Shown here: positions 1 through 64,000 of the stretch, piece by piece
Layout: each line of letters opens with the position of its first letter
Position numbering within the stretch: the stretch's first letter is position 1
NCBI RefSeq assembly: GCF_000732625.1
Contig: NZ_JPJI01000032.1
Location: forward strand, 558,001 to 622,000
Length of the DNA stretch: 64,000 nucleotides
Origin: Nonlabens ulvanivorans
GTDB taxonomy: Bacteria; Bacteroidota; Bacteroidia; Flavobacteriales; Flavobacteriaceae
Direction of reading: 5' to 3'
Notes under the pieces: generated by a model
Seen by the model: only the letters and a program-made list of their open reading frames with translations
Told to the model about the DNA's origin: nothing
The model's database searches: none
Position numbers and translations under genes: made by a program

Positions 1-1152
1 TTTACCTTCTAGCATTTCTAGCATTGCACCACCACCGGTAGAGACATAACTTACTTGATCATCAAAACCAAATTGTTTTACCGCAGCAACAGAATCACCA
101 CCACCTACTAAAGAAAATGCTCCTGCAGCAGTAGATGCTGCGACAGATTTACCTAAAGAAATAGTACCATGAGAAAATGGCTCAAGCTCAAAAACACCTG
201 CTGGACCATTCCATAAAATAGTTTTGGCCTGCATTAATACAGTATGAAATTGTGATCTAGACTTCTCTCCTATATCTAATCCCATCCAACCATTTGGGAT
301 AGCGTCAATAGCTGCATTATCTATGGTTGCGTGCTCAGAAAAAGCATCGGCAGTAATAGCATCTACAGGTAAGTGTATGTTAGTATTTTTTGATTTGGCT
401 TTTTCAAGAATTTCAAGTGCTAATTCCATTTTATCGTCTTCACAGAGAGAATCCCCTATTTTACCACCTTGCGCTTTGATAAAGGTATATGCCATACCAC
501 CTGCGATAATAAGATCATCAACTTTATCGAGTATATTTTCAATAACGGTGATCTTAGATGAAACTTTTGCACCACCTAAAATCGCTACGACTGGTTTATC
601 TGGAGTTTCCAACACTTTATTCAAGCTCTCAATCTCTCTTGTCATTAAGTGACCAAAGCATTTTTCATCAAAATATTGAGCAATTATTGCTGTAGATGCA
701 TGTGCTCTATGTGCGGTACCAAATGCGTCGTTTACATATACGTCTCCTAATTGAGATAACGCTTTCGCGAAAGCGGAATCACCAGCAGTTTCTTCACTGT
801 GAAACCTTAAGTTTTCTAATAAGAGAACTTCACATGGCTGTAGATTTGCAGCTGCTTGTTGAGCGGCATCGCCTATACAATCATCCACAAACTTTACCTG
901 AACACCTAATATATCAGTAGCAGCGGCAACGATGTGCTTTAAAGAAAATTCTTCTTGATTTCCTTTAGGGCGACCTAGATGTGACATAAGTATTACTGAG
1001 CCTTCATCTTCTAGAATTTTAATGATGGTATCTTTTGCCGCAAGGATACGAGTCGCATCCGTTACTTCAAAATCATCATTGAGCGGCACGTTAAAGTCAA
1101 CTCTTACTAAGGCTTTTTTATCTTTAAAATTGATATCGTTAATAGTCTTCAT
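1..1152 (-). CDS. pgk: Phosphoglycerate kinase (3' end cut by window)
   Basis: Catalyses the ATP-forming transfer from 1,3-bisphosphoglycerate to ADP in glycolysis, in the cytosol. Read on the minus strand from an ATG at 1152, giving 384 residues with no stop before base 1. The family is about 395 residues, so only about a dozen C-terminal residues are missing. Visible: the N-terminal VRVDFNVP substrate motif (residues 16-23), SHLGRPKG, the DAFGTAHR motif, LGGAKVSSKI, WNGPAGVFE and the C-domain GGGDS nucleotide loop. A copy of the 16-bp palindrome (760-775) is translated as AFAKA near residue 126, a helix where related enzymes carry similar residues, so it looks tolerated. Transcribed divergently from holB, with a -7 element at 1175-1182. 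Confidence 0.97.
   Translation of the reverse strand, partial: MKTINDINFKDKKALVRVDFNVPLNDDFEVTDATRILAAKDTIIKILEDEGSVILMSHLGRPKGNQEEFSLKHIVAAATDILGVQVKFVDDCIGDAAQQAAANLQPCEVLLLENLRFHSEETAGDSAFAKALSQLGDVYVNDAFGTAHRAHASTAIIAQYFDEKCFGHLMTREIESLNKVLETPDKPVVAILGGAKVSSKITVIENILDKVDDLIIAGGMAYTFIKAQGGKIGDSLCEDDKMELALEILEKAKSKNTNIHLPVDAITADAFSEHATIDNAAIDAIPNGWMGLDIGEKSRSQFHTVLMQAKTILWNGPAGVFELEPFSHGTISLGKSVAASTAAGAFSLVGGGDSVAAVKQFGFDDQVSYVSTGGGAMLEMLEGK
760..775. repeat. 16-bp palindrome copy 1 (exact, in pgk)
   Basis: CGCTTTCGCGAAAGCG, exact. It lies inside pgk and is translated as AFAKA. The downstream base triplet reads TTA rather than the TAA stop of the extended consensus. Confidence 0.95.
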
Positions 1153-1174
1153 AGTTATATGTTGTGAATGGTCA

Positions 1175-1182
1175 CAAATATA
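1175..1182 (-). promoter_or_regulatory. Promoter -7 element of pgk
   Basis: TATATTTG on the minus strand matches the Bacteroidetes -7 consensus TAnnTTTG. It is 22 bases before the pgk ATG. I see no TTG at the expected -33 distance. Confidence 0.55.
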
Positions 1183-1214
1183 GCGGTTATGATACAACCT
1201 CGCGCCTATACTTT

Positions 1215-1222
1215 TATATTTG
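1215..1222 (+). promoter_or_regulatory. Promoter -7 element of holB (four bases before ATG)
   Basis: TATATTTG ends four bases before the ATG at 1227. Transcription from such an element would begin at or next to the A of ATG, so a leaderless mRNA is predicted. This also argues against the upstream start at 1164. Confidence 0.55.
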
Positions 1223-1226
1223 CATT

Positions 1227-2357: not shown

Positions 2358-2434
2358 AAGTAGTTAACATGTTGAAAATTAGGAATTAATTATAAAAAGG
2401 TAGTAATTTTACCTTTCGTTAAAAATTCTTTCTG

Positions 2435-2827
2435 TTGATTACTTATTCAGGTCCCATTTTAATTTTAGTTTTTTTGCTGTTAACAATAATTATTTCTGCT
2501 TATGAAAAATTATTTGTTTGGAATAAGACTCTCAAGGATTATGTAGAAATGTATAAAAACCATCTACCGCCTTTTTTAGTGAAACTATCTTTAATTATAA
2601 TTTTAGGCCTTGAGATAATTGTGACCTCATTCCTAGCTTTGGGAATTTATGATATCATAGTTGATCAAGATATCTCCTTGAGCGAAATAGGATTAATAAT
2701 TACAGGAGTTCTTTTCTTAATTCTACTTATCGGATTGAGAATTTTACAGGATTATCGTGGCGCAGGTAGAACAGCTATTTATTTTCTTCTCGTCGTTTTT
2801 GGTCTATTTTGGATACAATCAATATAA
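2435..2827 (+). CDS. DoxX-like integral membrane protein
   Basis: 130 residues with about four membrane segments (roughly 5-25, 48-72, 82-103, 110-128). The first loop, EKLFVWNKTLKDYVEMYKN, and the overall size and spacing resemble DoxX/DoxD-family proteins common in Flavobacteria; biochemical role unknown. The only start that keeps the first membrane helix is TTG at 2435; the next in-frame Met (residue about 39) would delete it. Same strand as holB, 77 bases downstream. Confidence 0.65.
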   Translation: MITYSGPILILVFLLLTIIISAYEKLFVWNKTLKDYVEMYKNHLPPFLVKLSLIIILGLEIIVTSFLALGIYDIIVDQDISLSEIGLIITGVLFLILLIGLRILQDYRGAGRTAIYFLLVVFGLFWIQSI

Positions 2828-5688: not shown

Positions 5689-6108
5689 CTATTGTTTCAC
5701 GTGAAACATTTTAATTTTTTCATCTTCTTTGAGTCGCATAATACTTTTTTCGATATCAGTTTTATCACCAAAACCAATAAGGTGAAGCAGCCCATGAGAC
5801 ATAACTCGTAACAGCTCATCGTCAAAGCTTACGACAAAATCCTTAGCATTATCCTTAACTCTATCCACAGAAATATATATTTCCCCATGAATAAAATCAT
5901 CGTCGCAATAATCGAAAGTTATAATATCCGTTAAAGTATCATGATTTAAATACTTCTGATTTATTTCCAATAGAAAATCATCAGTACAAAAAACATAGGA
6001 TAAATCACCTAAAGATTTATTCTCAGATAAAGCAACAGCTCGTAACCATTTTGAATATCGTACTTCATCTGATAATTCAAAATTAAATTGATAATTAAAG
6101 TCTACCAT
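5689..6108 (-). CDS. ybeY: Endoribonuclease YbeY (16S rRNA maturation)
   Basis: Metal-dependent single-strand RNase in 16S rRNA processing and ribosome quality control; 139 residues. The signature HGLLHLIGFGDKT is present near residues 105-117: the first two histidines of the family's H-x3-H-x5-H zinc site are there, but the third is replaced (GFGDKT), a variation I associate with Bacteroidetes members. The last five codons (FHVKQ) are formed by a perfect parS sequence. The 5' end overlaps the upstream coiled-coil protein gene by 14 bases, so translation is likely coupled. Confidence 0.9.
   Translation of the reverse strand: MVDFNYQFNFELSDEVRYSKWLRAVALSENKSLGDLSYVFCTDDFLLEINQKYLNHDTLTDIITFDYCDDDFIHGEIYISVDRVKDNAKDFVVSFDDELLRVMSHGLLHLIGFGDKTDIEKSIMRLKEDEKIKMFHVKQ
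5693..5708. promoter_or_regulatory. parS site (perfect 16-bp palindrome)
   Basis: TGTTTCACGTGAAACA, the perfect palindrome known as the ParB/Spo0J centromere site. It lies within the last codons of ybeY, seven bases before the mnmG start codon. Confidence 0.82.
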
Positions 6109-9100
6109 CTTCTTTAAAATACTCCTTTACCTTCTGTTTATATTGCTGTTGCAAAGGTAGTACTTGTCTATTTAAAATCTCCTTACTATTAAAATACATG
6201 GATGCATCTGGTAAAACAGCATTAGTAGGATTGTTGAAGTCTTTACGATTAGTATTTCCTTCTCTTTCATCCTCCTTACCTTGTTGCAATCCTGCGTCTT
6301 TTAACTTCAATAAATCATGTTGTATCTCCATCATTTGATTTTGAACTTCACGATTAAAACCTTGATCTAATAGCTTACGCTCCACTGCCTTCATCTTATC
6401 AGTAATGTCATCAACAATTCCTTCAAGACCTTCCTGACGAATCATATCCTCTAATTGATTTCTCAATTCCTGTTGTCTTTTATAAATCTCATAAATCCTG
6501 CCACTTTCTTCTTCTGATTCTTTATATCCACGTTTCTCTTGACTATCACCAGATCCATTTTCATTTCCATCTTTTCCACTCGTACCATCACTACCCGATC
6601 CTTCACCATTAGAACCTTGACCGCCTTCACCACCTTGACCACCTTGGCCAGATTCACCAGTACTTCCTTTACCGTCTTTACCGCCTTGACCACTTTCACC
6701 ACCTTCACCAGATTGACCACCTTCACCCGACTGACCTTCTTGACCATACTTTCCTCCTTGACCAGGTGGACCAGATTCTCCAGGTTTACCTTCGCCAGGT
6801 TTTTTTCCCTTACCATCACCAGGTTTTTTACCATCGTTACCTTCCTTACCGTCCTGTCCTTCTTTCATCAAAGACTCCTGTTTCTTAATAATGTCTGGTA
6901 ACTGAAAACCTGAACTTTGACCTTCACCAGGTTCTCCTTCACCTTTACCAGGTAAAGCCATCGCATTATTCATAGCATCCATAGCGCTGCTAAGTAGATT
7001 TGCTAGTTTATTAGAACCATTCAAAGTGAACTGCTGTGATATCTGCCCTTTATTCATCTCAAAATCACTTAGTTGCACCAAAGATTTATCTATATAATAG
7101 TAAATATCAGTTACTTCTCTATTTATTTCTATTCCCACCTCAGGATTACGTGATGCAAGAGCAAATAAACTGTCATCGACGTGTTTAAATGCTTTCTCAA
7201 GATCCTTTTGGATTTTAAGTTTTTTACCAAAATTTGGACTGTTTCTATTTAGATTCTTAACACCATTAAGAACGTTTTCTTGTTCCTTTGAAAACACAAT
7301 CAGGTTATCTAATATCTGACGCAACATATCTGCATCCTCTTTCAATTTCTCAGATTTACCAGAACTCATTTGAGCTTTCATAGCTTGCGCTTGCTCTTTC
7401 ATTTTATCTGCGGCACTTTTTTGTTTTTTACTAGCATCCGGCGTTTTAGAATTCTCAAGATGATCGCTAGATTCCTGCTGTTCTTTCTTAATCTCTGGTG
7501 AGTTAAGTGGATCAAAATCTAACTTCATAGGTTTTTTAAGACCATTGTTTTCCTTCTCAAGTTCCTGTAGTTCCTTTTCCCATTTCTTATAAGCTTCATT
7601 TAACTTATCCTGTTCAGACTTCTTATTCTTATCACCTTCTTTTTTTGATTGATCTTCTTGCTGTTGTGCAATGTCCTTCAGCTTATCAATCATTTGCTCA
7701 TACTTCTGCGTAACGTAATACATTTTTGTGAGCTCTAGCAATTGTTTTAAATTACGCTTTTGCTGCTTTGAATTCTTTTGAGCCTTCTCTATTTTTTCTT
7801 TAAGATCTTCTTTACTTAACTTATCTTGGTACTCTTGAAGCTCTTTAAGTAATTCTTCATTTTTCTTAATCTCTTCTTCACTTTGCTGTAAACGTTCTTT
7901 TAAAGCCTGTTTCATAGGATCTTTTTCAGGATTAGACTTCTCTAAATTATCCCTCATTTTTTCCATTTGTTGACGCATTTCACGTTCCTGCTCTTGTTGA
8001 TTTTTAAGAGCTTGTTCTAATTTTTTCTTATCGTTAAAACCACGTTGTTTTTTCTCAATTTGCTCTTGACTTATTTCTTTAAGTTCTTCTTGTTGTTTTT
8101 CTTGTTCTAATAATGATTTCTCTAGCTCTTCTAAAGATTCTTTTTGACCTTTTAATTGTTTTTGCTGTTCCTCTTCTTTTGTAGATTTTTTGAAACCATA
8201 AACCTGACTCTTTGCACTTTTAAAATTATTAACAACATCATTATCAACTACTTCAAAATAAAATTGATAATTTTTACCGCCTTTTAAGGGTAAATTACCA
8301 GGAAAAGTGAAAAGAAATTGATCAAATGTTCCACGATTCTTTCCTATCTCATAAATCTGCTGACTTACGTTATTATCGCTTTCAAAATAAACAAGTTGTA
8401 TCCTTCTAATCCCATAATCATCAGCTACTTGACCTCTGAAATAAAGAATATCTTCTTGAATACTATCTTTCTTCATTTCCATTTTTAATTCTGGATAATC
8501 ATCCTTAGTAACTTCAATTTTAAAATTCAATTCTTCAAAATCCCTTGCATTCACATTGGATGTTGAGATAGCATATTTAAGTGGCTTTAATATCGCTTTC
8601 GCGAAAGCGTAATCATTACCATCCTTCTCAAACGATTCTACAGCATTAGTATATTTAAAATCTACATGATCTGTCGCAGCGGTTTCTAATTTCCAAGTAA
8701 TCTTAGTTCCCTGTGGAACCAGAGCATTTCCCGTGCTTTTTATAACCTCATCTTTCTTACCAGTATAGGATGGATAGTCCATCAATAATTCAAATTTATT
8801 AATGGAAGGGACAGCATCGACAGTAAGTTCAAAATTCTCACTACGCACTTCATTTGCTTTAAGATAAAATGGAGTGTCTGCAGATGGATTATTAAATACA
8901 AAACTAAATCTACCTGGAGCGTCTTGAGTTAAATAATAAGTTTGATTATTAAAATGAATACTTGCGTTTTCAGGAATTGTTCTTCCTGAAACTTCTACAT
9001 TAAGTTTGAAATCACGTTTTTGTAAAGTATTCAAATCTTCATTAAGCAACTTAAAAGTGAAAGGTGCTGGTGGGATGTACTCATTGTTAAAGTCTGCTAC

Positions 9101-9646
9101 ACGTTTTGTACTTTCTGTTAGTACATCATTATTACCAGTGAAGAAAAGTGCAGCAATAATTAACAATGGAATAGCAAGATATTTTAAATATGCCGCGTTC
9201 TTTTTAAAATCGATGGCGAGAGAAAAAGGAATAGGTTTGAGCTCTTCACTCTTCTGATTAATACTGGCCCAAGTAAGCTCATCATCTCCTCCATTTTTAT
9301 GTAATTGTAATATGTTGATTAATTTATCTGATACTTCAGGAAAATGAGTTCCTATCATATTACTGGCATCTCTAAAATCAATTCCTGAAAATAATTTGAA
9401 TAGTCTTGCTAATGGTATACCAATAAATTTAAACAATAATGCTGCCTGTACTAACACAAAAAGACCAAATAAAATTGTTCTACCTGTAGAACTCAACCAT
9501 AAAAAATGCTCGATAACAGCAGTAAATAGGAAGTACAATAATCCTATCGCTAGAAATAAAATAATACCACGAATGATCTCATTTGTGTAATATTTTTTAA
9601 TAAAAAGTTTGAGCTTGTGCTCTATGATTTGAAAGTTATTCATCAC
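6095..9646 (-). CDS. Giant DUF4175-like membrane-anchored coiled-coil protein
   Basis: 1183 residues. Order: N-terminal pair of membrane helices (about 22-42 and 57-75), a third helix near 152-170, an extracytoplasmic beta-rich region (about 180-480), a very long Gln/Glu/Lys-rich coiled coil (about 490-780), a helical region, then a Gly/Lys/Glu/Ser low-complexity stretch (about 920-1040) built from GxxGxxG-like repeats, and a charged C-terminus. The architecture matches the DUF4175-type proteins I know from Bacteroidetes; function is not established, and an envelope structural or scaffolding role is inference. A palindrome copy is read as AFAKA near residue 348. It probably heads an operon with ybeY, mnmG and the methyltransferase. 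Confidence 0.72.
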   Translation of the reverse strand: MMNNFQIIEHKLKLFIKKYYTNEIIRGIILFLAIGLLYFLFTAVIEHFLWLSSTGRTILFGLFVLVQAALLFKFIGIPLARLFKLFSGIDFRDASNMIGTHFPEVSDKLINILQLHKNGGDDELTWASINQKSEELKPIPFSLAIDFKKNAAYLKYLAIPLLIIAALFFTGNNDVLTESTKRVADFNNEYIPPAPFTFKLLNEDLNTLQKRDFKLNVEVSGRTIPENASIHFNNQTYYLTQDAPGRFSFVFNNPSADTPFYLKANEVRSENFELTVDAVPSINKFELLMDYPSYTGKKDEVIKSTGNALVPQGTKITWKLETAATDHVDFKYTNAVESFEKDGNDYAFAKAILKPLKYAISTSNVNARDFEELNFKIEVTKDDYPELKMEMKKDSIQEDILYFRGQVADDYGIRRIQLVYFESDNNVSQQIYEIGKNRGTFDQFLFTFPGNLPLKGGKNYQFYFEVVDNDVVNNFKSAKSQVYGFKKSTKEEEQQKQLKGQKESLEELEKSLLEQEKQQEELKEISQEQIEKKQRGFNDKKKLEQALKNQQEQEREMRQQMEKMRDNLEKSNPEKDPMKQALKERLQQSEEEIKKNEELLKELQEYQDKLSKEDLKEKIEKAQKNSKQQKRNLKQLLELTKMYYVTQKYEQMIDKLKDIAQQQEDQSKKEGDKNKKSEQDKLNEAYKKWEKELQELEKENNGLKKPMKLDFDPLNSPEIKKEQQESSDHLENSKTPDASKKQKSAADKMKEQAQAMKAQMSSGKSEKLKEDADMLRQILDNLIVFSKEQENVLNGVKNLNRNSPNFGKKLKIQKDLEKAFKHVDDSLFALASRNPEVGIEINREVTDIYYYIDKSLVQLSDFEMNKGQISQQFTLNGSNKLANLLSSAMDAMNNAMALPGKGEGEPGEGQSSGFQLPDIIKKQESLMKEGQDGKEGNDGKKPGDGKGKKPGEGKPGESGPPGQGGKYGQEGQSGEGGQSGEGGESGQGGKDGKGSTGESGQGGQGGEGGQGSNGEGSGSDGTSGKDGNENGSGDSQEKRGYKESEEESGRIYEIYKRQQELRNQLEDMIRQEGLEGIVDDITDKMKAVERKLLDQGFNREVQNQMMEIQHDLLKLKDAGLQQGKEDEREGNTNRKDFNNPTNAVLPDASMYFNSKEILNRQVLPLQQQYKQKVKEYFKEDGRL
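8594..8609. repeat. 16-bp palindrome copy 2 (exact, in DUF4175-like gene)
   Basis: CGCTTTCGCGAAAGCG, exact; translated on the minus strand as AFAKA, followed by an Ile codon instead of the TAA of the extended consensus. Confidence 0.95.
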
Positions 9647-10958: not shown

Positions 10959-12476
10959 ATGAGCACTTCAGTTAGAGTAAGATTTGCACCTAGTCCTACG
11001 GGACCATTACATATAGGTGGCGTTAGAACAGCATTGTTCAACTATTTATTTGCAAAAAAACACAACGGTACTTTTGTACTACGTATTGAAGATACAGACC
11101 AAAACAGGTATGTAGAAGGTGCTGAAGATTATATTATTAACGCTTTAAACTGGTGTCATATTCCTTATGATGAAGGACCAGGAAAAGAAGGAGATTGTGG
11201 ACCTTATAGACAAAGCGAACGCAAATCAATGTATAAACAATATGCGCTAGACCTTATAGAAAAAGGTGCCGCCTATTATGCGTTTGATACTGCGCAAGAA
11301 TTGCAAACCGCTCGTGAAAATGCAGAAGCAAAAAAGGAAACTTTTATATACAATCATAACAATCGTAACGATTTTACCAATTCTCTAACCTTATCTAGTG
11401 ATGAAGTAAAAGAACGTATCAATCGTGGAGATGATTATGTGATCCGTTTTAAGCCAGAGTTGAAAACACTACACATGTTTGATGAAATCCGTAAAGGGAT
11501 TGAAATAGACACTTCACTTATCGATGATAAAGTATTATTTAAAAGTGATGGAATGCCTACTTACCACCTTGCTAATGTGGTAGATGACCATGATATGAAA
11601 ATTTCTCACGTGATACGTGGTGAAGAATGGTTGCCTAGCATGGCATTGCATGTATTGCTTTATGAAAGCTTTGGATGGGAACGACCTAAGTTTGCTCACC
11701 TACCATTAATACTTAAACCTACCGGAAAAGGAAAATTAAGTAAGCGTGATGGTGATAAAATGGGCTTTTCAGTATTCCCACTAGAATGGAAAGATCCTAA
11801 AAGTGGAGAAATATCTACAGGTTTTAAACAAGATGGTTTTCTTCCAGAGACAATGATCAATATTTTAGCGTTCTTAGGATGGAATCCAGGAACTGAACAA
11901 GAGATTTTCAGTCTAGATGAATTGGTTCAAGCTTTTAGTCTTGATAAGGTAAATAGTTCTGGTGCAAAATATGATCCGGAAAAAGCTAAATGGTTTCAGC
12001 AACAATGGTATGTTGCACAAGATGATGCTGTTATAGGTGCCGCTTTTGCGAAAGCGTTAGAAGAAAAAGATATCGATTATGGATCACAGGATTATGTGAA
12101 TATAGTTTGTGGTCTAGTGAAAGAACGTGCTGTTTTTACAGAAGATCTTTTTGAACTGGCTGGTTTCTTCTTTACTGCACCAGATTCATATGATGAAAAA
12201 GCAGCTAAAAAAGCTTGGAAAGAAGATACTTCTAACATTATGACAGATGTGATTAAAATTATCGAAGACTGCACTGATGATAGCGCTACCGGTTTAAGTA
12301 CTGCAATTAAAGGCTGGATTACTACTCAAGAAATGGGATTTGGTAAAGTAATGATGCCATTAAGACTATCATTAGTAGGTAGTTTGATGGGACCTGATGT
12401 ATTTGAAATAGCAAGTATGATAGGTAAAGATCAAACTATCGCTCGCATTCAACATGCTATAAAGAAGTTATCTTAA
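10959..12476 (+). CDS. gltX: Glutamate--tRNA ligase
   Basis: Class I aminoacyl-tRNA synthetase that charges tRNA-Glu; 505 residues, normal length. The HIGH-type signature PSPTGPLHIGG is at residues 11-21 and the KMSKS-type signature KLSKRDG near 258. The FRIEDTD-like segment appears as LRIEDTDQNRY. The C-terminal anticodon-binding helical domain is complete. A one-mismatch palindrome copy (12041-12056) is translated as AFAKA in the C-domain. The stop overlaps the stop of the convergent barrel-protein gene by four bases. Confidence 0.97.
   Translation: MSTSVRVRFAPSPTGPLHIGGVRTALFNYLFAKKHNGTFVLRIEDTDQNRYVEGAEDYIINALNWCHIPYDEGPGKEGDCGPYRQSERKSMYKQYALDLIEKGAAYYAFDTAQELQTARENAEAKKETFIYNHNNRNDFTNSLTLSSDEVKERINRGDDYVIRFKPELKTLHMFDEIRKGIEIDTSLIDDKVLFKSDGMPTYHLANVVDDHDMKISHVIRGEEWLPSMALHVLLYESFGWERPKFAHLPLILKPTGKGKLSKRDGDKMGFSVFPLEWKDPKSGEISTGFKQDGFLPETMINILAFLGWNPGTEQEIFSLDELVQAFSLDKVNSSGAKYDPEKAKWFQQQWYVAQDDAVIGAAFAKALEEKDIDYGSQDYVNIVCGLVKERAVFTEDLFELAGFFFTAPDSYDEKAAKKAWKEDTSNIMTDVIKIIEDCTDDSATGLSTAIKGWITTQEMGFGKVMMPLRLSLVGSLMGPDVFEIASMIGKDQTIARIQHAIKKLS
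12041..12056. repeat. 16-bp palindrome copy 3 (one mismatch, in gltX)
   Basis: CGCTTTTGCGAAAGCG, one change (C to T at position 7). Translated as AFAKA; the change is silent (TTC to TTT, Phe). Confidence 0.85.
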
Positions 12477-16067: not shown

Positions 16068-16083
16068 CGCTTTCGCGAAAGCG
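16068..16083. repeat. 16-bp palindrome copy 4 (exact, intergenic)
   Basis: Exact core with TA before and TAATT after; 26 bases downstream of the glnS stop. Confidence 0.95.
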
Positions 16084-19228: not shown

Positions 19229-19244
19229 CGCTTTCGCGAAAGCG
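19229..19244. repeat. 16-bp palindrome copy 5 (exact, intergenic)
   Basis: Exact core followed by TAATTA, 32 bases downstream of the DUF2807 gene on the minus strand. Confidence 0.95.
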
Positions 19245-24633: not shown

Positions 24634-24649
24634 CGCTTTCGCGAAAGCG
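24634..24649. repeat. 16-bp palindrome copy 6 (exact, intergenic)
   Basis: Exact core, starting four bases after the rpiB stop. Confidence 0.95.
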
Positions 24650-26934: not shown

Positions 26935-29145
26935 TTAATCATCATGATGTCCATGACCGTGATGACTTTTATTACCAAATGGTTTCCATATGATTCCTGC
27001 ACTTAAGATAAAACCATCTGTAGGCGCATAAATTTCATTAAAAGTAGGTACTCCAGTAATATCTGTAGTGACAGTAGGAGAGTAGCGGCTTTGTCTTCTA
27101 TCTGTTAGATTTTCAAAATTCATATATAGATTTCCCCAGTCAAAGTTTTTCATAACCAGCAGACCCATCAATAAAAAATCTTGAGAATCTGAGCCATCAA
27201 ATAAAAGTTGTTTACCAGTATAATAGGTTTCATAACCTATGCGCCATTTCTCATTTTCATACATAATAACGCTACCGGCATTATGTTTTGCAGTCAGTGG
27301 TTTTTGAGGATTACCATCTAGATAATTAAGTTGAGTGTCTATAAGTGCATAGTTTAAGAACCATTTAAAATCTTTATAAGAGAATTTAATATTAGTCTCT
27401 GCACCGCGACTGAAGGTAAAATCTGTTGCATTTGAATATTCAAACATTCCTGGACTAGTGGCACTGCTATTGAGTAATAATCCGTTATCTATGGCGGTTA
27501 AATAAAATAATTGATTAATCGAGAAATTAATCTGATCAGTAATAGCAAACCCATAATCAAAATCTAGATTCATACCATAAGAGGTCTCTGCCACTAATTC
27601 ATTTTTGTCTATCCCCATTACATTTTGAAAATTCAATCTTTCAGCATCTTCAGTAAATAAATCTGGAATTTTATAACCTAATCCACCACCTAAACGACTT
27701 GTAAACCTTCCATCACTTTTATATAATAAAGATGCTCTAGGTAACACAAAAGCACCCCAATCTGTTGTAAAATCTGTACGTAGACCAGTTTCTAATATCC
27801 AGTTATTATTAATATCTGTAATGTTATTTACAAAAGCACCTATGGTAGTATCTTTTTGATCACGTTCATTAATCTGCACGTCTTCGTCAAAGCTAGATGT
27901 ATATAAATTAGCTCCCAAAACCCAGTCAGTCTTTGTAGAATTAGTTTTATAATTTACCTCAGTAAATGTGTTGACCTGATTACCTTTAAAATCCATATTA
28001 GGAATCAGTAATTCTCTATTAAAATAAGCAATACTATTTTTAAACTGGAAGCTAGAATGATCTGTAAGTTGAGTATCCCATACCGCTTGTGTACTTAACC
28101 TGCGCGATATGTTTTGTTCTAGATATCCATTATTATTGCCATCTATAGCATCTAGATTTCCACCTTTACGATCGTCAAATGTACCGTTAAGACCTAGCCA
28201 TAAGGTTGTTTTCTCACTAGGATAATAAAATACTTTAGGATTTAGTGAAATGGTACGCGCTCGAGGTAAATTAGAATATTCATCTCCATCTGGATCATAC
28301 TCTTTTTGAGAATTTGCGCTTCCATAAAGCGTCATTCCCCATTTATCATTACGTGCACTGTAAAATACGTTTCCAGTAACTCCTAGGGCTTGTGTCCCTA
28401 CTAACATTAAATCTAGCTCTGCCTCATCATCTGGCGTTTTAGACTGCATATTTACCAGTCCTGCAATGGCACCACCACCATATAGTGTAGAAGAACTTCC
28501 TTTAATGATTTCAAATTGAGAAATATCTAATGGTGGTACTTGCATGATACTTAATCCACCAGCAAAGCCACCGTAAAGTGGAAATCCATCTTTTAACAAC
28601 TGTGTATATCGACCATCTAACCCTTGTATACGTATGGATTGATTTGCACTGCTTTGAGAGGTTTGTTGCATCTGTATACCGGTGCTTTCTCTCAGTACCA
28701 TAGCAATATTAGTACTGTTCATTGCTGTTTTTTCAATAAGCTCTTCTCCACCTATAAATTCTACTCGAGTAGGTGTGCGTTTAAAACTACGAGAAGATCG
28801 TGTAGACTGTATGACGATTTCTTCCAGTTCGCCTTTTGCCTCGTGTAGTTGAAATGTATAATCCAGTTGATCTGGTATAACAGCAGTAACGGTTTGTTTT
28901 TCATATCCTATAAAAGAAATGGTCAGTTCATAAGTTCCAGCTTCTAGGTTGTTAATGGTTCCTTTCCCGTTGATATCCATCATCGCACCTTTTTGGAGAT
29001 TTTGGATGGTAGCGTTTGCACCTAGTAATGGTTCGTTATTTTCTTCAGATACCACAGTGATGTTGATATCATAGGTTGTTTTGGATTGCGCTTTCGCGAA
29101 AGCGTAACACAGCAACAACATGCTGCATAAAATGATTTTTTTCAT
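26935..29145 (-). CDS. TonB-dependent outer-membrane receptor, probably for metals
   Basis: 736 residues. Signal peptide (about 1-20, CYAFAKAQS); carboxypeptidase-regulatory-like domain (about 25-105, with GTYELTISFIGYEKQTV); plug domain (about 110-220, with IRIQGLDGRYTQLLKDGFPLYGG) and a 22-strand barrel. The C-terminal end is His-rich (SHHGHGHHDD), and the upstream gene product is small, secreted and His/Cys-rich, pointing to Cu or Zn uptake or handling (inference). A palindrome copy forms the end of the signal peptide. The gene has its own terminator. Confidence 0.87.
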   Translation of the reverse strand: MKKIILCSMLLLCYAFAKAQSKTTYDINITVVSEENNEPLLGANATIQNLQKGAMMDINGKGTINNLEAGTYELTISFIGYEKQTVTAVIPDQLDYTFQLHEAKGELEEIVIQSTRSSRSFKRTPTRVEFIGGEELIEKTAMNSTNIAMVLRESTGIQMQQTSQSSANQSIRIQGLDGRYTQLLKDGFPLYGGFAGGLSIMQVPPLDISQFEIIKGSSSTLYGGGAIAGLVNMQSKTPDDEAELDLMLVGTQALGVTGNVFYSARNDKWGMTLYGSANSQKEYDPDGDEYSNLPRARTISLNPKVFYYPSEKTTLWLGLNGTFDDRKGGNLDAIDGNNNGYLEQNISRRLSTQAVWDTQLTDHSSFQFKNSIAYFNRELLIPNMDFKGNQVNTFTEVNYKTNSTKTDWVLGANLYTSSFDEDVQINERDQKDTTIGAFVNNITDINNNWILETGLRTDFTTDWGAFVLPRASLLYKSDGRFTSRLGGGLGYKIPDLFTEDAERLNFQNVMGIDKNELVAETSYGMNLDFDYGFAITDQINFSINQLFYLTAIDNGLLLNSSATSPGMFEYSNATDFTFSRGAETNIKFSYKDFKWFLNYALIDTQLNYLDGNPQKPLTAKHNAGSVIMYENEKWRIGYETYYTGKQLLFDGSDSQDFLLMGLLVMKNFDWGNLYMNFENLTDRRQSRYSPTVTTDITGVPTFNEIYAPTDGFILSAGIIWKPFGNKSHHGHGHHDD
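29089..29104. repeat. 16-bp palindrome copy 7 (exact, in signal peptide)
   Basis: Exact core within the TonB receptor gene; translated as AFAKA, where AKA followed by Gln is the signal-peptidase cleavage motif. Confidence 0.95.
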
Positions 29146-30625: not shown

Positions 30626-31657
30626 CTAATAATACTTCTTCTTCAACCAAAATGCCACACGTACCAGTAATATCAATGCGGGAACTTCTACCAGTGGTCC
30701 GATCACACCTGTAAACGCCTGACCAGAATTAAGTCCAAAAACCGCAATAGCAACTGCAATCGCTAATTCAAAATTATTTCCAGCTGCAGTAAAAGCAATT
30801 GCTGCGTTTTCACTGTAGGACGCACCACGATATTTACTGATAAAAAATCCTATCAAGAACATGACTATGAAATAAATCATTAAAGGAACCGCAATCAATA
30901 ACACATCAAACGGAATTTCAACAATTAACTCACCTTTTAATGAGAACATTAAAATAATAGTAAGCAATAATGCCACTAAAGTAATAGGTGAAATAGCCGG
31001 AATAAATACGTTTTCATACCATTCTTTACCACGAGCTTTCACAAGAAAGTAACGACTTAAAATTCCCATTAAAAATGGAATTCCTAGATAGATAGCAACA
31101 CTTTCTGCAATGGTCGCAATTGATATATCTACAATTGCACCGTCAAAGCCGAAATAAGGCGGCAATACGGTTATAAACAACCATGCATAGAATGAGTATG
31201 CAAAAACTTGAAAAACGCTGTTTAAAGCGACTAATCCAGCTCCATATTCAGGAGAACCATCTGCTAGATCATTCCATACTAGTACCATGGCTATACAGCG
31301 TGCTAGACCTATTAAAATAAGTCCCACCATATATTCTGGATGATTCTGAAGAAATATTAACGCAAGTGCAAACATCAATACGGGACCTATTACCCAATTT
31401 AATAAAAGTGAGATACTTAATATCTTAGTGTTTTTAAAAACGACTGGTAAGAGTTTATAGTCTGCTTTTGCTAGCGGTGGATACATCATTAAAATAAGAC
31501 CTATTGCAATGGGAATATTAGTCGTTCCACTACTCATGTTGTTAATAGAAGTAGCTATAGTAGGTATATAATAACCTAATCCTACACCTATTGCCATGGC
31601 CAGAAATATCCATAGGGTTAAGTATTGATTGAGAAAGCTTAGTTTTTTAGTGCTCAT
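30626..31657 (-). CDS. arsB: ACR3-family arsenite efflux transporter
   Basis: 343 residues with ten membrane helices; exports arsenite (and antimonite) by the membrane potential. Shows ACR3 features: [24 protein letters not shown] with the conserved Cys in helix IV and a charged loop, and [18 protein letters not shown]. The symbol arsB is used here for ACR3-type pumps. Last gene of the arsenic operon; its ATG overlaps the arsC-like stop by four bases. Confidence 0.9.
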
Positions 31658-32268: not shown

Positions 32269-32281
32269 TTTATATTTTAAG

Positions 32282-32752
32282 TTAACAACAACCAGATCCT
32301 GGCGCACATGTATTTTGGGCTTCAGAAAGTTGAACTTTAGGTTTTTTTAATTGTTCTGGTGGTATACCGCAGGAATCTTTGGCAAGACAATCGGTCAATT
32401 TATTGGTAAGTAGAAAGTGTTCACCATTGTAATCGATACCAAATTTACCAATTGTTCCCGCTTGATATTCTACTTCTATTTCTACATCTGGTAGGCCTAA
32501 TTTATCCTGAGATAGCTCTATAATAGAAACTAATTTTTCTGGATGTAATCGATGATCATAATCGTTTGCTTCCCATAGTTGAAAATTAACTACAGTTTCT
32601 AGACGTTCTGTACCACCACAATCTATAAAGTGTTTTACAACTTTACCTACCTCAGTTACATGAAAGTGTGATGGTACCAGACTACCATCTGGTAATTTAA
32701 ATGCGATTTGTTCTAATTGTGATAGCTGATTTTTAAATGCGGATAGTTTCAT
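32282..32752 (-). CDS. DUF6428-type protein of the arsenic operon
   Basis: 156 residues, cytosolic. Opens with LPDGSLVPSHFHVTEVGKVVKHFIDCGG, a pattern I associate with DUF6428 proteins encoded next to arsR in Bacteroidetes. Ends in a Cys-rich tail CAPGSGCC, with other Cys at CLAKDSCG, which suggests thiol-metal(loid) binding (inference). Between arsR and arsC, 13 bases before arsC. Confidence 0.72.
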   Translation of the reverse strand: MKLSAFKNQLSQLEQIAFKLPDGSLVPSHFHVTEVGKVVKHFIDCGGTERLETVVNFQLWEANDYDHRLHPEKLVSIIELSQDKLGLPDVEIEVEYQAGTIGKFGIDYNGEHFLLTNKLTDCLAKDSCGIPPEQLKKPKVQLSEAQNTCAPGSGCC

Positions 32753-38378: not shown

Positions 38379-38394
38379 CGCTTTCGCGAAAGCG
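38379..38394. repeat. 16-bp palindrome copy 9 (exact, intergenic)
   Basis: Exact core, in the gap between the M1 and S8 peptidase genes, abutting the S8 terminator's T tract. Confidence 0.95.
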
Positions 38395-41100: not shown

Positions 41101-41116
41101 CGCTTTCGCGAAAGCG
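41101..41116. repeat. 16-bp palindrome copy 10 (exact, intergenic)
   Basis: Exact core with TA before and TAAAT after, 55 bases before the antiporter start. Confidence 0.95.
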
Positions 41117-49152: not shown

Positions 49153-51564
49153 ATGAAACTGATATCCATTTTATTACTATTCACTTCTTTAAGTACGTTT
49201 GCTCAAATTAATCTTACAGGTAACCTTATCGATTCTGACGGTGCTCCCATTGCTTTTGCAAATGTGGTGCTTCTCGATGTAGAAGAGGGAACTTTTAAAT
49301 ACGGTACTTCAACTGATGAGACAGGAAACTTTTCTTTCCCTAATGTAATTAACGGCGATTATAATTTCAATGCCTCTTTTGTGGGTTATGTTACGCTTTC
49401 GCGAAAGCTGACTCTACAAAAAAACACTGCTCTTAACAATCTCACCTTAGAAACAGATGCTGCGCAACTAGACGCTGTAACAATCATCGCAGAGAAACCA
49501 ACTATAGAGCGCAAGTCTGATCGTCTTATTTTTAATGTTGAAAACACAACCTTAAGCACAGGAAATGCATCACAGATTTTACAATCTACACCAGGAGTGT
49601 TTGAAATGAATGGTACTTATACTGTAAAAGGTAGTGTAGCCCAAGTGTACATTAATAACAAACGTGTCTATTTAAGTAATGAAGAATTAGAACAATTATT
49701 AAGTGGATATAGCGGTGAGAACGTAAAAAGTGTTGAAGTTATTCATAATCCACCTGCTCTATATGATGCAGAAGGTGGCGCAGTAATTAATATCGTTACT
49801 AGTAAGAACGTCTCATTAGGCTATAAGGGCTCGTTAACGGGCAAGTATGAAATTGACACTTTTGCAAAATATAATATCGGTACCAGTCAGTATTATAAAA
49901 ATAACTGGCTTAACGTGTACGCAAATTATAATTTTAATCCACGTAAAGACTTGACTCTCGAAGAATCTCAAGTAGGTTTTTTTAATAATGATGGAACAAG
50001 AAGCTCTCGCTGGTTTACTGATTTAAATAGTGTCTCACGCAGTCAGTCACATGCATTCAATACCATTATAGATATCAATATTAATGAGAAAAACAGCTTA
50101 TCTATTTTAGGTTATCTAGGATTAGACAATGGTAGAGAGGTAGATACGGATGTGAACACCTTAATCTTACCACAAGGAGGAACTATGTTTAGTGGTTTTA
50201 ATACGGATTCTAGTACGGGACGCGATGCCACTATCGGTTCTCTTAACTTAGGATGGATTAACATTATGAATGATAATGGCGGTACATTAAGTGTGGAAGG
50301 AAGTTACTTTTTTACTGAAGTAGACAATGGGCAAGACTTTTTCAGCACATTTTTTGATGACACGCAAACTACATCTAGTACAAACAGTTTCAATACCGTA
50401 GGTTTTCAAGATATAAATATATTTACTGCAAAAGCAGATTACCTTAATCAGATCGGTGCTTATTCACTATCTGCTGGATTAAAATATTCTGATATTTCAT
50501 CTCAGAGTAAACAAGATTTTTTTGATACCAATATGGGTAGTAGTATAGACCCGTCACTATCAGACAACTATTCTTATGATGAGCATATTTATGCAGCATA
50601 TGCGCAATTAGAAAGAGAATGGACTAAATGGTCTTTTACCGGAGGATTAAGATTAGAACAAACAGATGTCGTGGGAGATAGTGAAACTTTAGGCTTAGTT
50701 AATTCTCAAAATTACCTCGGCTTTTTTCCTAATATATCGGTTACTCATAATCTTAATGAAAAGAATGATTTATCGTTAAGTTACAAACGCTCTATTGAAA
50801 GACCTAGGTATGGTGATTTAAATCCATTTAATAATTTTATAAATGATAATAATATAGAGTCTGGTAACCCTAATTTACAACCAGCCTTTACTAATAAAGT
50901 AACACTAGGGTGGACATACGACTATGAGTTATTTGTAGATGCTTACTACATTTATACTAAAGGTATTTTAGATAATTTACCTTTTCAAAATAATAATACA
51001 AACGTGTTGACCACACAAAGCGCTAATCTGAATTATGAATTTCAATATAGTGTTGATGCAACACTTATAAAATATCCTACTGAAAAGTGGACTTCTTTAA
51101 CAAGTGTAAGTGCTTTTTATATGGAAAATGAATTTAAAGCCATACAATCAATTAGTGAGAACCAAAGATTAAATACTACAGGATTTTTTATTCAAACACA
51201 GAATTTATTTGAGCTTTCTAAGGATGGCACATTAAATATGTTGATAGAAGCAGATTATATTACTAGCATTCTTTTCGGTTCATACAAATATGAGAATATG
51301 CTAGCCAGTAGTATAGGCTTTTCAAAAAGATTATGGAATGATAGAGCTATATTAACTGCAAAGTATAGTGATATATTTCTTTCACAAAACCAGCCTTTTG
51401 TAAGTCGGTATGCAAATCAAGATAATCGCGTGTTAACCATTCCAGAAACTCAATTATTTACTATAGGATTTACTTATAAATTTGGAAACTTTAGATTAGA
51501 TAATCGAGAGCCAGAAGCTTCAGAAGAATTAGAACGTACTGGTAAAAAAACTAAAGGGTTATAA
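49153..51564 (+). CDS. Outer-membrane receptor-like beta-barrel with carboxypeptidase-like N-domain
   Basis: 803 residues. Signal peptide (about 1-17), carboxypeptidase-regulatory-like domain (about 19-105), plug-like part (about 110-220, GNASQILQSTPGVFEMNG) and a large barrel (OMP_b-brl_3-type) to the C-terminus. Few features allow a substrate assignment and no adjacent SusD gene exists, so it is not a polysaccharide locus pair. A one-mismatch palindrome copy is read as LSRKL near residue 83. Confidence 0.82.
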   Translation: MKLISILLLFTSLSTFAQINLTGNLIDSDGAPIAFANVVLLDVEEGTFKYGTSTDETGNFSFPNVINGDYNFNASFVGYVTLSRKLTLQKNTALNNLTLETDAAQLDAVTIIAEKPTIERKSDRLIFNVENTTLSTGNASQILQSTPGVFEMNGTYTVKGSVAQVYINNKRVYLSNEELEQLLSGYSGENVKSVEVIHNPPALYDAEGGAVINIVTSKNVSLGYKGSLTGKYEIDTFAKYNIGTSQYYKNNWLNVYANYNFNPRKDLTLEESQVGFFNNDGTRSSRWFTDLNSVSRSQSHAFNTIIDININEKNSLSILGYLGLDNGREVDTDVNTLILPQGGTMFSGFNTDSSTGRDATIGSLNLGWINIMNDNGGTLSVEGSYFFTEVDNGQDFFSTFFDDTQTTSSTNSFNTVGFQDINIFTAKADYLNQIGAYSLSAGLKYSDISSQSKQDFFDTNMGSSIDPSLSDNYSYDEHIYAAYAQLEREWTKWSFTGGLRLEQTDVVGDSETLGLVNSQNYLGFFPNISVTHNLNEKNDLSLSYKRSIERPRYGDLNPFNNFINDNNIESGNPNLQPAFTNKVTLGWTYDYELFVDAYYIYTKGILDNLPFQNNNTNVLTTQSANLNYEFQYSVDATLIKYPTEKWTSLTSVSAFYMENEFKAIQSISENQRLNTTGFFIQTQNLFELSKDGTLNMLIEADYITSILFGSYKYENMLASSIGFSKRLWNDRAILTAKYSDIFLSQNQPFVSRYANQDNRVLTIPETQLFTIGFTYKFGNFRLDNREPEASEELERTGKKTKGL
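49394..49409. repeat. 16-bp palindrome copy 11 (one mismatch, in barrel receptor)
   Basis: CGCTTTCGCGAAAGCT, last base changed; translated in the LSRK frame. Confidence 0.85.
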
Positions 51565-52981: not shown

Positions 52982-54199
52982 TTATAATTTTGCTTGAGAA
53001 AGCAACGCTTCATTGATTCGTCTAGATGCGATATAACTTGCTATAATACCTAATATGGATGTTGTCCCTATGGCAACAGCAACATTAGTTAAGACCATTT
53101 CAAAAGGATAAGGAAGTCCTGGAGCTATATAAAGAAGACTATATTCTATCTGTAGGTAAACAAAGGCAACACCTATAAAGAGACCTATTAATCCACCACT
53201 TATCGTCATTAAACTACCTTGAATAAAAAATATTTTACGTAAAGATTTCACACTAGCGCCTAAATCTAATAAGGTTTTTAAGTTTTGTTTTTTATCCAGA
53301 ATCATCATGATTATGGACCCTAAAACATTAAATAGCGCGATGATTAGTACTAAAGTAAAGATCAGATAAACAGCAAGGTTCTCTGAATTAAGCATTTTGT
53401 ATAAACCATCATTCATTTGAAGTCTATTTTTAATAACTATAGGGACATCAAATAATGCTTCTATTTCTTCTCTTATTTGATCTTCGTCAACATCAGGTGA
53501 AATTTTAATCTCTAAGCTACTTGCCTGGTCACCATTATAATTCAATAATTTTCTGGCAGCTGCAATGGTTGTAAAAATATATTTACTGTCTAGATTTTCA
53601 TTAATACTAAAAACTCCCGTAGCGACAACATCAATCTGACTAAAAGAATCCCTATAATTTAAAGCGTTAATCGCATTTTTTCCAGGTTTAGGCACCATGA
53701 TTTGTAAAAACCTACCATAATTATCTACTTGTAAAGAAAGCTCATCAGATATTGCTGCACCAGCGACAATTTGTAAATCACTGTTGCCTAGCCAACTACC
53801 TTCTAGTAATATCGTGTCTGTTTTTATGATTTGGTCATAATTACTGTCGACACCTTTGATGTAAGCGATGTCGTTTTTACCATCATAATGTAAAAAAGCT
53901 TTTTCCTCAATGGTAGCACTTAGCAATGTGATACCCGATATGTTTTCTAGTTCTCGCTTTCGCGAAAGCGGAATCTCTATAACTTTACCATTTAAAGGAG
54001 TAACCTTAAGGTCTGGATCAAAATAACTACTAAACTCTGTACTAAAACTTTTTAATCCTGAGAATCCAGAAAGCACAATGAATAAGGCAGCTGTCCCAAC
54101 AATAGTTATTATAAAACTAAGTATGTTGATAATGTTAATGGCGTTTTTACCATTTTTAGATACCAGATATCGCTTTGCGATGTAATAAGAAAAGTTCAC
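52982..54199 (-). CDS. FtsX/LolC-family ABC transporter permease
   Basis: 405 residues from a GTG at 54199. N-terminal membrane helix (about 22-45), large periplasmic MacB-like region (about 50-255), and three C-terminal helices (about 265-395) with the FtsX-family pattern. Of the LolC/E type for lipoprotein release, or another MacB-like function; the ATPase partner is not adjacent. A palindrome copy is read as LSRKR near residue 80. Its start overlaps the rbfA stop by one base (TAGTG). Confidence 0.82.
   Translation of the reverse strand: MNFSYYIAKRYLVSKNGKNAINIINILSFIITIVGTAALFIVLSGFSGLKSFSTEFSSYFDPDLKVTPLNGKVIEIPLSRKRELENISGITLLSATIEEKAFLHYDGKNDIAYIKGVDSNYDQIIKTDTILLEGSWLGNSDLQIVAGAAISDELSLQVDNYGRFLQIMVPKPGKNAINALNYRDSFSQIDVVATGVFSINENLDSKYIFTTIAAARKLLNYNGDQASSLEIKISPDVDEDQIREEIEALFDVPIVIKNRLQMNDGLYKMLNSENLAVYLIFTLVLIIALFNVLGSIIMMILDKKQNLKTLLDLGASVKSLRKIFFIQGSLMTISGGLIGLFIGVAFVYLQIEYSLLYIAPGLPYPFEMVLTNVAVAIGTTSILGIIASYIASRRINEALLSQAKL
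53955..53970. repeat. 16-bp palindrome copy 12 (exact, in LolC-like gene)
   Basis: Exact core; translated as LSRKR in the periplasmic region. Confidence 0.95.
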
Positions 54200-59833: not shown

Positions 59834-59849
59834 CGCTTTCGCAAAAGCG
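59834..59849. repeat. 16-bp palindrome copy 13 (one mismatch, intergenic)
   Basis: CGCTTTCGCAAAAGCG, one change, with TA before and TAAAT after; between accB and accC. Confidence 0.85.
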
Positions 59850-61927: not shown

Positions 61928-61974
61928 AATAAAGGTTTTAGAAGTTGTTGATATAGTAAATATGCTGTGTATTA

Positions 61975-61990
61975 CGCTTTCGCGAAAGCG
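61975..61990. repeat. 16-bp palindrome copy 14 (exact, intergenic)
   Basis: Exact core; here the palindrome extends further on both sides (ATTA before, TAAT after). 50 bases past the stop of the TonB receptor gene. Confidence 0.95.
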
Positions 61991-62040
61991 TAATCAACCC
62001 AACTGTCGTATCTTGATACTGAGTTGTGCAAAGCAAAATT

Positions 62041-64000
62041 TTATAGATTATCTAGTTGATTGTCATTACTACCTAGCGTCCAAAAGAAGCCTACAAAAAT
62101 AAATCTGTCTGCAGCCTGACCTATCGATCTACGATCAAAATTGCCCATCTGATCAGGTGTATTACTGTATTGATAATTAAAGATATTTTCTCTTCCTAAG
62201 ATATTTGTCACTGATAAGAATACGATTTTTTGTTGATCGATGAGATATGCCCAGTTTAAATTTAAACTTTGAAATGAAGCAGTTTTATCATTAAGAAAAC
62301 CTTCTAGGTTAGGATTAGTAAATGTTCTACCACTGGTATAATTGTAGGTAATACCTATTTGTGATTTTAAATCCTCAACCCAATACTTTCCTACCGCGCT
62401 GAAGTTATGTGAACTGGCAAAATTAGGCGTTGCAGTTTCTTGAAAATTAAGGTACTTTCTTTCAGTATCTAGATAAGAGTAGCTGATCCAGTAGTCTAAA
62501 TTTTTAACAGTTTTCTCATCGCGCCAAAATATATCTAGTCCAGTCGCATAGCCATCTCCATTTACCTCAAAATTACTATCAAATTGTGGTCTGTCAGTAT
62601 CATAGGTTAATAGACTAGAATAGTTTTTGTAGTAGGTCTCTGCACGTAGCATGCGACCATCTTTTTGATATAAAAAATTAAGGATATAATGCTCTGCACT
62701 TTCTGGTGCTAGTTGCTCATTATATTGAAGAATATTATTTTGAGCCTGCTGATAGAAATGCCCATAAGCAATAGATGCCTGCCAATTCTTAGATACACTT
62801 ATGGCAGCGCTCAATCTAGGAGATATAAGTAACTCTTCACTTAAGCCATAATAATCTGCTCTTACACCAGCTTTAAAGGCAAGATCTTTAGATAGAAAAA
62901 CTTCAGCCTCTGTAAAAACGCCTGAATTAGAAGAATTAACAGATGATTCAAAAGCGTTATCTTCTATAACAACACCTTCTTTATAGTTGATGAGAAATTG
63001 TTCTACACCGTAGTGGATTTTAAAGTAATTATTGTAACGCTTACGCAATTTTAATTTTGCATGTAATGCATTTTCTCTAGTGTCCACATCTGTACCTGCA
63101 ACGTTAATGTCATTACGATCATGTGCTAGACTAAGACCAGTTTCCATTTTCCAATCATTGTTAAGACGCTGCTCATAGTTTAAATTCCCGTAGTAATTCC
63201 CGTTTTTAAGTCCAAAGAATATCCCATCCTCTATATTAATATCTTCTTGTAGGATACTAAAATTACTATAAGAATAAGCACTGTAAGCCTTAAACATTCC
63301 TTTCTCGAGTTGATGTCTATAGACAGCTTCACCACTAATGGATTCATATGGATCTTCAAACTGATTGTTTTGCGGTATTAACTGATTATAAGGACCTAGG
63401 TTAATATAACTAGCATTAACACTAACACTATTCTTTCCCCATATTTGTGTATTTCCCACGCCACCACCTACACTCATGATTTGTAAGTCTGTTTTTTCCT
63501 CTGTAGGTATATCAGTGGTGTTTAATAATAATACACTCGATAGAGCGTCACCATACTCTGCACTGTAACCACCAGTAGAAAATGATATTCCATCAAATAA
63601 GAAAGGAGAAAACCTTCCTCGTGTAGGTATATTTCCAGTAACTGGCACAAAAGGGCGGAATACTCTACTATTATCAATAAATACTTGAGTTTCCTCACCA
63701 CTTCCACCACGTACAAAAAGACGCCCATCATCTGGATTTGCACTCGTTCCTGGAAGTGTTTGCAATGCACCGACAAAATCACCTACTGCACCAGCCGTGG
63801 TTACTATATCAAGTGGTTTAAGTGCGCTCGCCTTAGAACTGTCTCCAGCACTTAAAGTTCCAGCATTTAGAATCACAGAGTTAAGACTATTTACGCTTTC
63901 GCGGAAGCGTATTTCTACACCATTCAGCTCTCTAACGTCAGATTGCTGGATATAATCTTCATAGCCTATAAAACTGGCGACTAAGGTTACTGTAGAAGTT
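62041..64000 (-). CDS. TonB-dependent receptor (5' end cut by window)
   Basis: Reads on the minus strand from beyond base 64000; 652 residues are inside the window. The visible N-terminus is a carboxypeptidase-like domain end (TSTVTLVASFIGYEDYIQQ), then a plug domain (GRLFVRGGSGEETQVFIDNSRVFRP) and the barrel. The in-frame GTG at 63876 is internal, not the start. A one-mismatch palindrome copy at 63894-63909 is translated in the third frame (RFRES). Substrate unknown; no SusD gene is visible within the window. Confidence 0.85.
   Translation of the reverse strand, partial: TSTVTLVASFIGYEDYIQQSDVRELNGVEIRFRESVNSLNSVILNAGTLSAGDSSKASALKPLDIVTTAGAVGDFVGALQTLPGTSANPDDGRLFVRGGSGEETQVFIDNSRVFRPFVPVTGNIPTRGRFSPFLFDGISFSTGGYSAEYGDALSSVLLLNTTDIPTEEKTDLQIMSVGGGVGNTQIWGKNSVSVNASYINLGPYNQLIPQNNQFEDPYESISGEAVYRHQLEKGMFKAYSAYSYSNFSILQEDINIEDGIFFGLKNGNYYGNLNYEQRLNNDWKMETGLSLAHDRNDINVAGTDVDTRENALHAKLKLRKRYNNYFKIHYGVEQFLINYKEGVVIEDNAFESSVNSSNSGVFTEAEVFLSKDLAFKAGVRADYYGLSEELLISPRLSAAISVSKNWQASIAYGHFYQQAQNNILQYNEQLAPESAEHYILNFLYQKDGRMLRAETYYKNYSSLLTYDTDRPQFDSNFEVNGDGYATGLDIFWRDEKTVKNLDYWISYSYLDTERKYLNFQETATPNFASSHNFSAVGKYWVEDLKSQIGITYNYTSGRTFTNPNLEGFLNDKTASFQSLNLNWAYLIDQQKIVFLSVTNILGRENIFNYQYSNTPDQMGNFDRRSIGQAADRFIFVGFFWTLGSNDNQLDNL
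63894..63909. repeat. 16-bp palindrome copy 15 (one mismatch, in TonB receptor)
   Basis: CGCTTTCGCGGAAGCG, one change; read on the minus strand as RFRES, the third possible frame. Confidence 0.85.

Follow-up and report, generated by a model that had tools for sequence, protein, structure and literature searches.

The palindrome and its sites in the window

The DNA analysed here, a 64,000-nucleotide stretch of Nonlabens ulvanivorans (contig NZ_JPJI01000032.1, positions 558,001 to 622,000; hereafter the window), carries dispersed copies of a perfect 16-bp palindrome, CGCTTTCGCGAAAGCG, 11 of them exact and four, starting at 12041, 49394, 59834 and 63894, with one mismatch. Every coordinate given in the initial annotation was right, and a search of the window allowing up to three mismatches found no copies beyond these 15. 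The palindrome had been held to be near-absent by chance, which shuffling bears out (mean 0.10 copies in 100 shuffled windows, maximum 1). The whole genome (3.21 Mb, 45 contigs) has 436 exact copies and none of a reversed-pattern control, so that the count is not near random expectation and the motif is not confined to the window; all 23 Nonlabens genomes carry it, with 180-737 exact copies each. In agreement with a Nonlabens host, the RNase R encoded in the window has 98% identity to the proteins of Nonlabens ulvanivorans JCM 19298 and Flavobacteria bacterium BBFL7. Because of this over-representation, together with even spacing, a core that is conserved over its flanks and scarcity around acquired DNA, we conclude that the palindrome serves as a recognition site in double-stranded DNA, specific to the lineage and maintained there.

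Six of the 15 window sites lie within open reading frames (ORFs) of at least 150 amino acids. Orthologous places were compared in three close relatives of about 91% identity (G016, G003 and G001) and in a distant pair of about 75% (G002 and G010); in the distant pair, 10 of the 15 sites are not alignable on both sides. Site 2 (8594-8609; ORF 6095-9646) and site 8 (32198-32213; ORF 31654-32307) are exact in the window and in all five relatives, the latter despite differing flanks. Site 3 (12041-12056; ORF 10959-12476) has one mismatch, which the three close relatives share, G002 being exact and G010 having one other mismatch, and the single mismatch of site 11 (49394-49409; ORF 49153-51564), in an outer base, is likewise common to the three close relatives. 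Site 12 (53955-53970; ORF 52982-54199) is exact here and in G016 and G003, with one mismatch in G001, and site 7 (29089-29104), near the start of a TonB-receptor-like ORF (26935-29145), is exact here and in the three close relatives. The long ORF that holds site 2 matched a collagen-like adhesin model, but weakly and below the cut-off.

Site 4 (16068-16083) and site 6 (24634-24649), both exact, lie outside ORFs of this length; the former is exact in the three close relatives and unaligned in G002 and G010, and the latter is kept in the three close relatives, with its first base altered in G001. Tandem intergenic gaps hold site 5 (19229-19244; exact here and in four of five relatives, absent in G010), site 9 (38379-38394; exact here and in the three close relatives), site 13 (59834-59849; before accC, with one mismatch here and in G016 and G003, exact in G001) and site 14 (61975-61990; exact here, with a degenerate stretch of the same length at the same place in G016). 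Site 10 (41101-41116), also exact, is in a divergent gap, and G016 and G001 keep its core with differing flanks. Site 1 (760-775) is exact here and in G003, G001 and G002, with one mismatch in G016 and G010, and site 15 (63894-63909), with one mismatch in the window, is exact in G016, G003 and G001.

Over the aligned orthologous sites, identity is 0.92-0.99 in the core versus 0.68-0.91 in the flanks. A tiny mobile palindrome, one of the roles offered in the initial annotation, is not supported by the comparison, since orthologous places align and no 16-bp insertion or deletion was found at the 15 sites in up to five relatives. The absence of site 14 in G016 is a substitution of the stretch at equal length, and that of site 5 in G010 (13 bases against 20) is too diverged to judge.

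Gene context was read from 464 contiguous kb, with coding and gap classes, here and in the genome SAT51 discussed below, taken from simple ORF picks and not from annotation. This stretch holds 103 sites (69 exact, 29 with one mismatch and five with two), 59 of them in coding sequence, which makes up 91% of the stretch, 43 in gaps and one unclassed. The palindrome had been said to occur in genes and gaps alike; both kinds are indeed occupied, but the gap sites are about 4.6-fold above the gaps' share of the DNA. The intergenic sites fall in 28 tandem, 13 divergent and two convergent gaps, and 37 of the 59 coding sites use the reading frame Ala-Phe-Ala-Lys-Ala.

Within the palindrome, constraint is weakest at the outer pair and next weakest at the pair 6-11, and positions 4, 5 and 8 scarcely vary; in G022, a genome with few exact copies, 69 of 81 mismatched letters fall in the outer pair. 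On the left flank, positions -9 to -12 are T-rich and their counterparts on the right are A-rich, the peaks being at distances of 9 and 12 bases; in 213 sites of two genomes, orientations pooled, T reaches 0.71 at -2 and 0.54 at -3. Mismatches in the outer pair are roughly independent (other Watson-Crick outer pairs number eight versus 5.0 expected in G022 and zero in G000 and G019), which fits recognition of double-stranded DNA and not a hairpin.

A mobile palindrome of the repetitive extragenic or miniature inverted-repeat type, a terminator or an RNA hairpin would suit a dispersed palindrome enriched in gaps. However, orthologous sites lack 16-bp indels, only two of the 43 gap sites are convergent, the outer pair is without clear covariation and two tRNAs are the sole Rfam matches in the window; we thus regard this group of explanations as very improbable. 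The earlier statement that the palindrome is neither a terminator nor a tandem array is supported, and the 600 bases around site 4, the sole site scanned, gave no terminator-like match.

Spacing of sites and reach of the motif

The initial annotation had described the copies as evenly spread, and the evenness proves stronger than claimed. It was measured on sites with up to two or three mismatches, exact copies alone being sparser. In the 464 kb, spacings average 4,543 bp (minimum 1,135, maximum 12,137) with a coefficient of variation (CV) of 0.46, whereas random placement that preserves the proportions of coding and gap sites gives a mean CV of 1.01 and a least value of 0.76 in 5,000 trials; none of the 102 spacings is below 1,135 bp, versus 23.7 expected. 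Twenty 20-kb samples around the complete Nonlabens chromosome G019 hold 110 sites, with a mean of 5.5, a variance of 1.2 and a range of 3-7 per sample, the sample with three including 9,778 masked bases. The CV there is 0.42 versus 0.87 in a matched control, and spacings below 1 kb number 4 of 90 versus 22.9 expected. With up to three mismatches, CV is 0.39 in G022, 0.47 in G002 and 0.58 in G010 (the latter two from 80 kb each); with up to two, it is 0.58 in Dokdonia sinensis (18 sites) and 0.82 in G234 (19 sites).

In a toy birth-death model, a site was given value only where a set distance around it was free of others. When this reach was 4 or 6 kb and the strength was one of the two weaker values, mean spacings came to 3.9-5.9 kb and CVs to 0.32-0.56, bracketing the data. 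Such a model would fit any function with local redundancy, and it does not tell uptake from anchoring. A tendency of mismatched sites to lie nearer to their neighbours was not clear (p ~0.07).

One function with local redundancy is that of a binding site for a putative dimeric protein of chromosome organisation or segregation, anchored every few kilobases as a ruler or loop anchor, an explanation that we consider doubtful but far from negligible. The perfect symmetry and the roughly independent outer mismatches are as for double-stranded DNA bound by a dimer, the T-rich left and A-rich right flanks could favour bending, and site positions are conserved between species. The G019 samples cover both signs of GC skew with uniform site counts. 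They thus reveal no regional bias towards terminus or origin, which is unlike the regional bias of MatP- or Noc-type sites and counts against a protein of those kinds.

Spacing is also more even than that of Chi in Escherichia coli, our yardstick, for which 200 kb gave 46 sites and a CV of 0.89, with 12 of 42 spacings shorter than 1 kb; in Nonlabens, divided into 50-kb pieces for this comparison, the CV was 0.44 and none of 90 was as short. A Chi-like site that spares self DNA from an end-resecting enzyme, readable from both sides as it is a palindrome, would have a density of the same order as Chi, but the near-random spacing of Chi speaks against it. Chi sites are 5-8 nt long and directional and are not known to be palindromic. 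Here both halves seem to be needed: six Nonlabens loci, each about 22 kb long, have five or six palindromes and, counting both strands, 9-11 occurrences of GCGAAAGC, so that the half site is hardly ever alone. We judge the Chi-like explanation improbable. Somewhat more improbable still is a highly iterated palindrome of the HIP1 type, kept by a DNA methyltransferase or by mismatch-repair bias; it would account for a palindromic, lineage-limited word in high copy in coding and gap DNA, but avoidance of close pairs is no obvious consequence of such bias, and 14-16 bp is long for a methyltransferase.

The motif is abundant in few lineages. A search of 59 genomes found 24 with any exact copy, the 24th (G033) having four, and among 397 sampled Flavobacteriaceae genomes 48 had a match, with only G250 (630) and G234 (153) above 13 outside Nonlabens. 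The inner 12-mer gives the same two genomes (917 in G250 and 445 in G234), with at most 21 in others outside Nonlabens. G250 is taken as Dokdonia sinensis, the RNase R rows being identical. Of 80 named loci, each of the six from Dokdonia has one site or more; among the other 68 outside Nonlabens, sites with up to two mismatches occur only in L089, L099 and L102. In an RNase R tree, G234 joins Dokdonia (SH-aLRT 80), and Leeuwenhoekiella, sister to that group, is motif-poor, implying that the word either dates far back and was lost in part or was gained repeatedly. The RNase R loci of sister genera, scanned for other over-represented palindromes, gave none that was clear.

In some low-copy genomes the copies lie close together at recurring spacings (933, 2446 and 3460; L174-L185). 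Twelve such stretches were read and ten proteins from four of them scanned, the eight unscanned stretches all aligning to L174. In L174, L175 and L182, CusA/CzcA-type metal efflux genes contain sites or adjoin them, and L174 has sites in a gene for a CopA-type ATPase as well; L180 differs in having a TonB receptor. These stretches suggest DNA in motif-poor Flavobacteriaceae that once passed through a motif-rich host.

A possible dialect of the word occurs in SAT51, a metagenome-assembled genome that is basal to Leeuwenhoekiella in the tree and carries 406 copies of the non-palindromic GGCGAAAGCC versus 10 of the reversed control. Elsewhere GGCGAAAGCC is scarcer: 32 copies in G234 (control 5), 21 in SAT149 (control 3), 3-9 in three Leeuwenhoekiella genomes and 24 in a fourth (control 13). 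In SAT51 it follows a T run (26 sampled copies, 22 of them in ORFs) and lies on both strands, and a thinner set of palindromes is on the same contigs; the assembly may be mixed, though both words share contigs. The pattern hints at dialects without proving them. If GGCGAAAGCC belongs to the same system, a non-palindromic word ill suits the symmetric dimer of a chromosome-organising protein. A hairpin family, GGCTT[AT]AAGCC, mostly located in gaps, also recurs in SAT51 (L244-L259).

Mobile DNA, exchange and possible self-DNA uptake

Conjugative elements and prophages were sought by one family each, so others may exist: Bacteroidetes-type TraG occurs in three of the 23 Nonlabens genomes, at five places, and Terminase_6N in two. 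Near these conjugation and terminase genes, site-free DNA extends over 33 kb in G019, 50 kb in G014 and 29 kb in G008; in G018 there is one site each in 42, 48 and 20 kb, and a contig of G015 has none in 40 kb. Site-free stretches of 29-50 kb within these chromosomes are awkward for a chromosome-organising anchor. Two Nonlabens phages of 35.7 kb each are without the palindrome at up to three mismatches, an absence that would also agree with a Chi-like site.

The reader protein was not found in a comparison of ParB_N and ComEC proteins across genomes. A Noc-like ParB paralogue was rejected as reader, since no extra ParB_N protein is typical of motif-rich genomes (six of seven have one copy); this weighs against a chromosome-organising protein of that family. 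The second ParB_N of G019 is a 616-amino-acid frame resembling those of the motif-poor G145, G352 and G033. These frames (G019:C1:1269093, G145:C1:2364602, G352:C1:1320466 and G033:C18:76088) have 602-616 amino acids, about twice the length of chromosomal ParB, and in G019 about 16 kb separates the frame from traG.

Homologous exchange has been frequent among Nonlabens, as all three groupings of four genomes are supported in local blocks: counts of 478, 860 and 760 were obtained for the three 2:2 site patterns, which are clustered, with a concordance of 0.64 below 50 bp, 0.42 at 400-800 bp and a baseline of 0.35 from 3-4 kb.

We tentatively favour, at somewhat less than even probability, the reading of the palindrome as a self-DNA watermark by analogy with the uptake sequences of Haemophilus and Neisseria. 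A putative receptor or processing protein, probably a dimer, would favour fragments bearing a site; one site would suffice per fragment, so that a nearby second site would add nothing; recombination would keep about one site per 4-5 kb, and selection or drive would ignore redundant sites. The preference arises because the site-free stretches, the exchange and the possible dialect match reports on Neisseria, and because a related species is competent without pilus homologues. Abundance throughout the genus, the even spacing and the conserved core also count in its favour. In Neisseria, integrative and conjugative elements (ICEs) were found by an atypical distribution of DNA uptake sequences (DUS; PMC7371117), and DUS are described, in the part of PMC2397512 drawn on here, as missing from genes of recent acquisition, with a spacing like that of conversion fragments. 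For Haemophilus, an excerpt of PMC1939737 credits Karlin with the finding that its uptake signal sequences (USS) are evenly spaced. Neisseriaceae have DUS dialects (PMC3630211), and Riemerella is reported to be naturally competent without pilus homologues, as far as the excerpt used goes (PMC8459023).

Several observations weigh against an uptake mark. A chromosome-organising site, the main rival, explains the palindrome and the evenness better, and the perfect symmetry would be at least as suitable for an intracellular dimer. Known uptake sequences are not known to be palindromic, and the sites may be more even than such sequences are. ComEC, the sole uptake gene looked at, is present in each of 16 genomes, whether rich or poor in the motif. 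Four of the five traG places (L224-L243) have one site about 3 kb from traG, and this site is apparently retained as part of the conjugative element. Three phage-like IMG/VR contigs (L010, L025, L035 and L042, four stretches scanned), with terminase, portal, tail or integrase genes, carry sites every 4-5 kb or so, a host-like density, although they were chosen for holding the motif and give no rate; the two isolated Nonlabens phages differ from them in this. With up to three mismatches allowed, G234 has a CV of 0.50, but its counts in five 20-kb pieces (mean 4.6, variance 5.3) show no under-dispersion. In SAT51 the combined sites are uneven (CV 0.80-0.94), so that GGCGAAAGCC may be unrelated to the palindrome. 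Beyond about 0.8 kb the exchange signal is no longer clear, with noise to 0.38 at 8-10 kb; exchange tracts thus look, from these patterns, shorter than the 4.5-kb spacing. The open literature gave no paper joining Nonlabens, Dokdonia and natural transformation. Known uptake sequences have cores of 9-10 bp (PMC7811141, in part), and USS are said in an excerpt of PMC1939737 to be less even than a role in compaction would need.

A bolder form of the anchoring explanation is possible, if doubtful: a putative new dimeric protein of Bacteroidota would be anchored about every 4.5 kb as a ruler, with selection dropping redundant sites and restoring missing ones. An uptake watermark in Bacteroidota, with pilus-free machinery as its reader, would be the first of its kind and equally new.

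A separate feature of the window is a single perfect TGTTTCACGTGAAACA (5693-5708), which we take to be the parS word. It occurs once per genome in the four Nonlabens compared, with no exact copy in G250 or G234, and its distance to RNase R is 13-16 kb in G002, G010 and G019, as in the window, which probably lies near the replication origin.

Relation to known systems

The open-licence literature held no report of the exact motif, and its entries on Nonlabens palindromes or on highly iterated palindromes in Flavobacteri*, in the parts available, included none on it. We know of no DNA word in Bacteroidota that marks self DNA or organises the chromosome in this way. The even spacing supplies a measurable length scale, and the site is a ready bait for its protein; site-free stretches may flag mobile elements in Nonlabens. 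If the palindrome is an uptake mark, it offers a handle on DNA uptake in this group; if structural, it would be a new type of chromosome ruler.

The sites of Noc, MatP, SlmA and ParB are palindromic sites of dimeric chromosome proteins. Unlike them, the palindrome is present in hundreds of copies that are evenly spread without regional bias, and has no ParB_N paralogue to go with it. Chi resembles it in the order of its density but is near random in spacing. HIP1 of cyanobacteria (GCGATCGC) is likewise highly repeated and palindromic; its own features, in the partial accounts used here, are a length of 8 bp and a link to orphan methyltransferases, and it is low in a minority of genomes despite rich relatives (PMC4390886).

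USS and DUS differ from the palindrome, which is symmetric, 14-16 bp long, found in another phylum and present once per 4.5 kb versus about once per 1 kb for USS. The origin of uptake sequences is itself debated, point mutation being argued for USS (PMC7811141) and recombination for many recent DUS (PMC2397512), each as given in excerpt. Like the palindrome, USS and DUS are lineage-specific words in hundreds of copies, with lower numbers in coding DNA and in DNA newly acquired (PMC7811141) and an atypical distribution in ICEs. Their spacing is tied to fragment length and they exist in dialects, for both of which the palindrome may offer a parallel.

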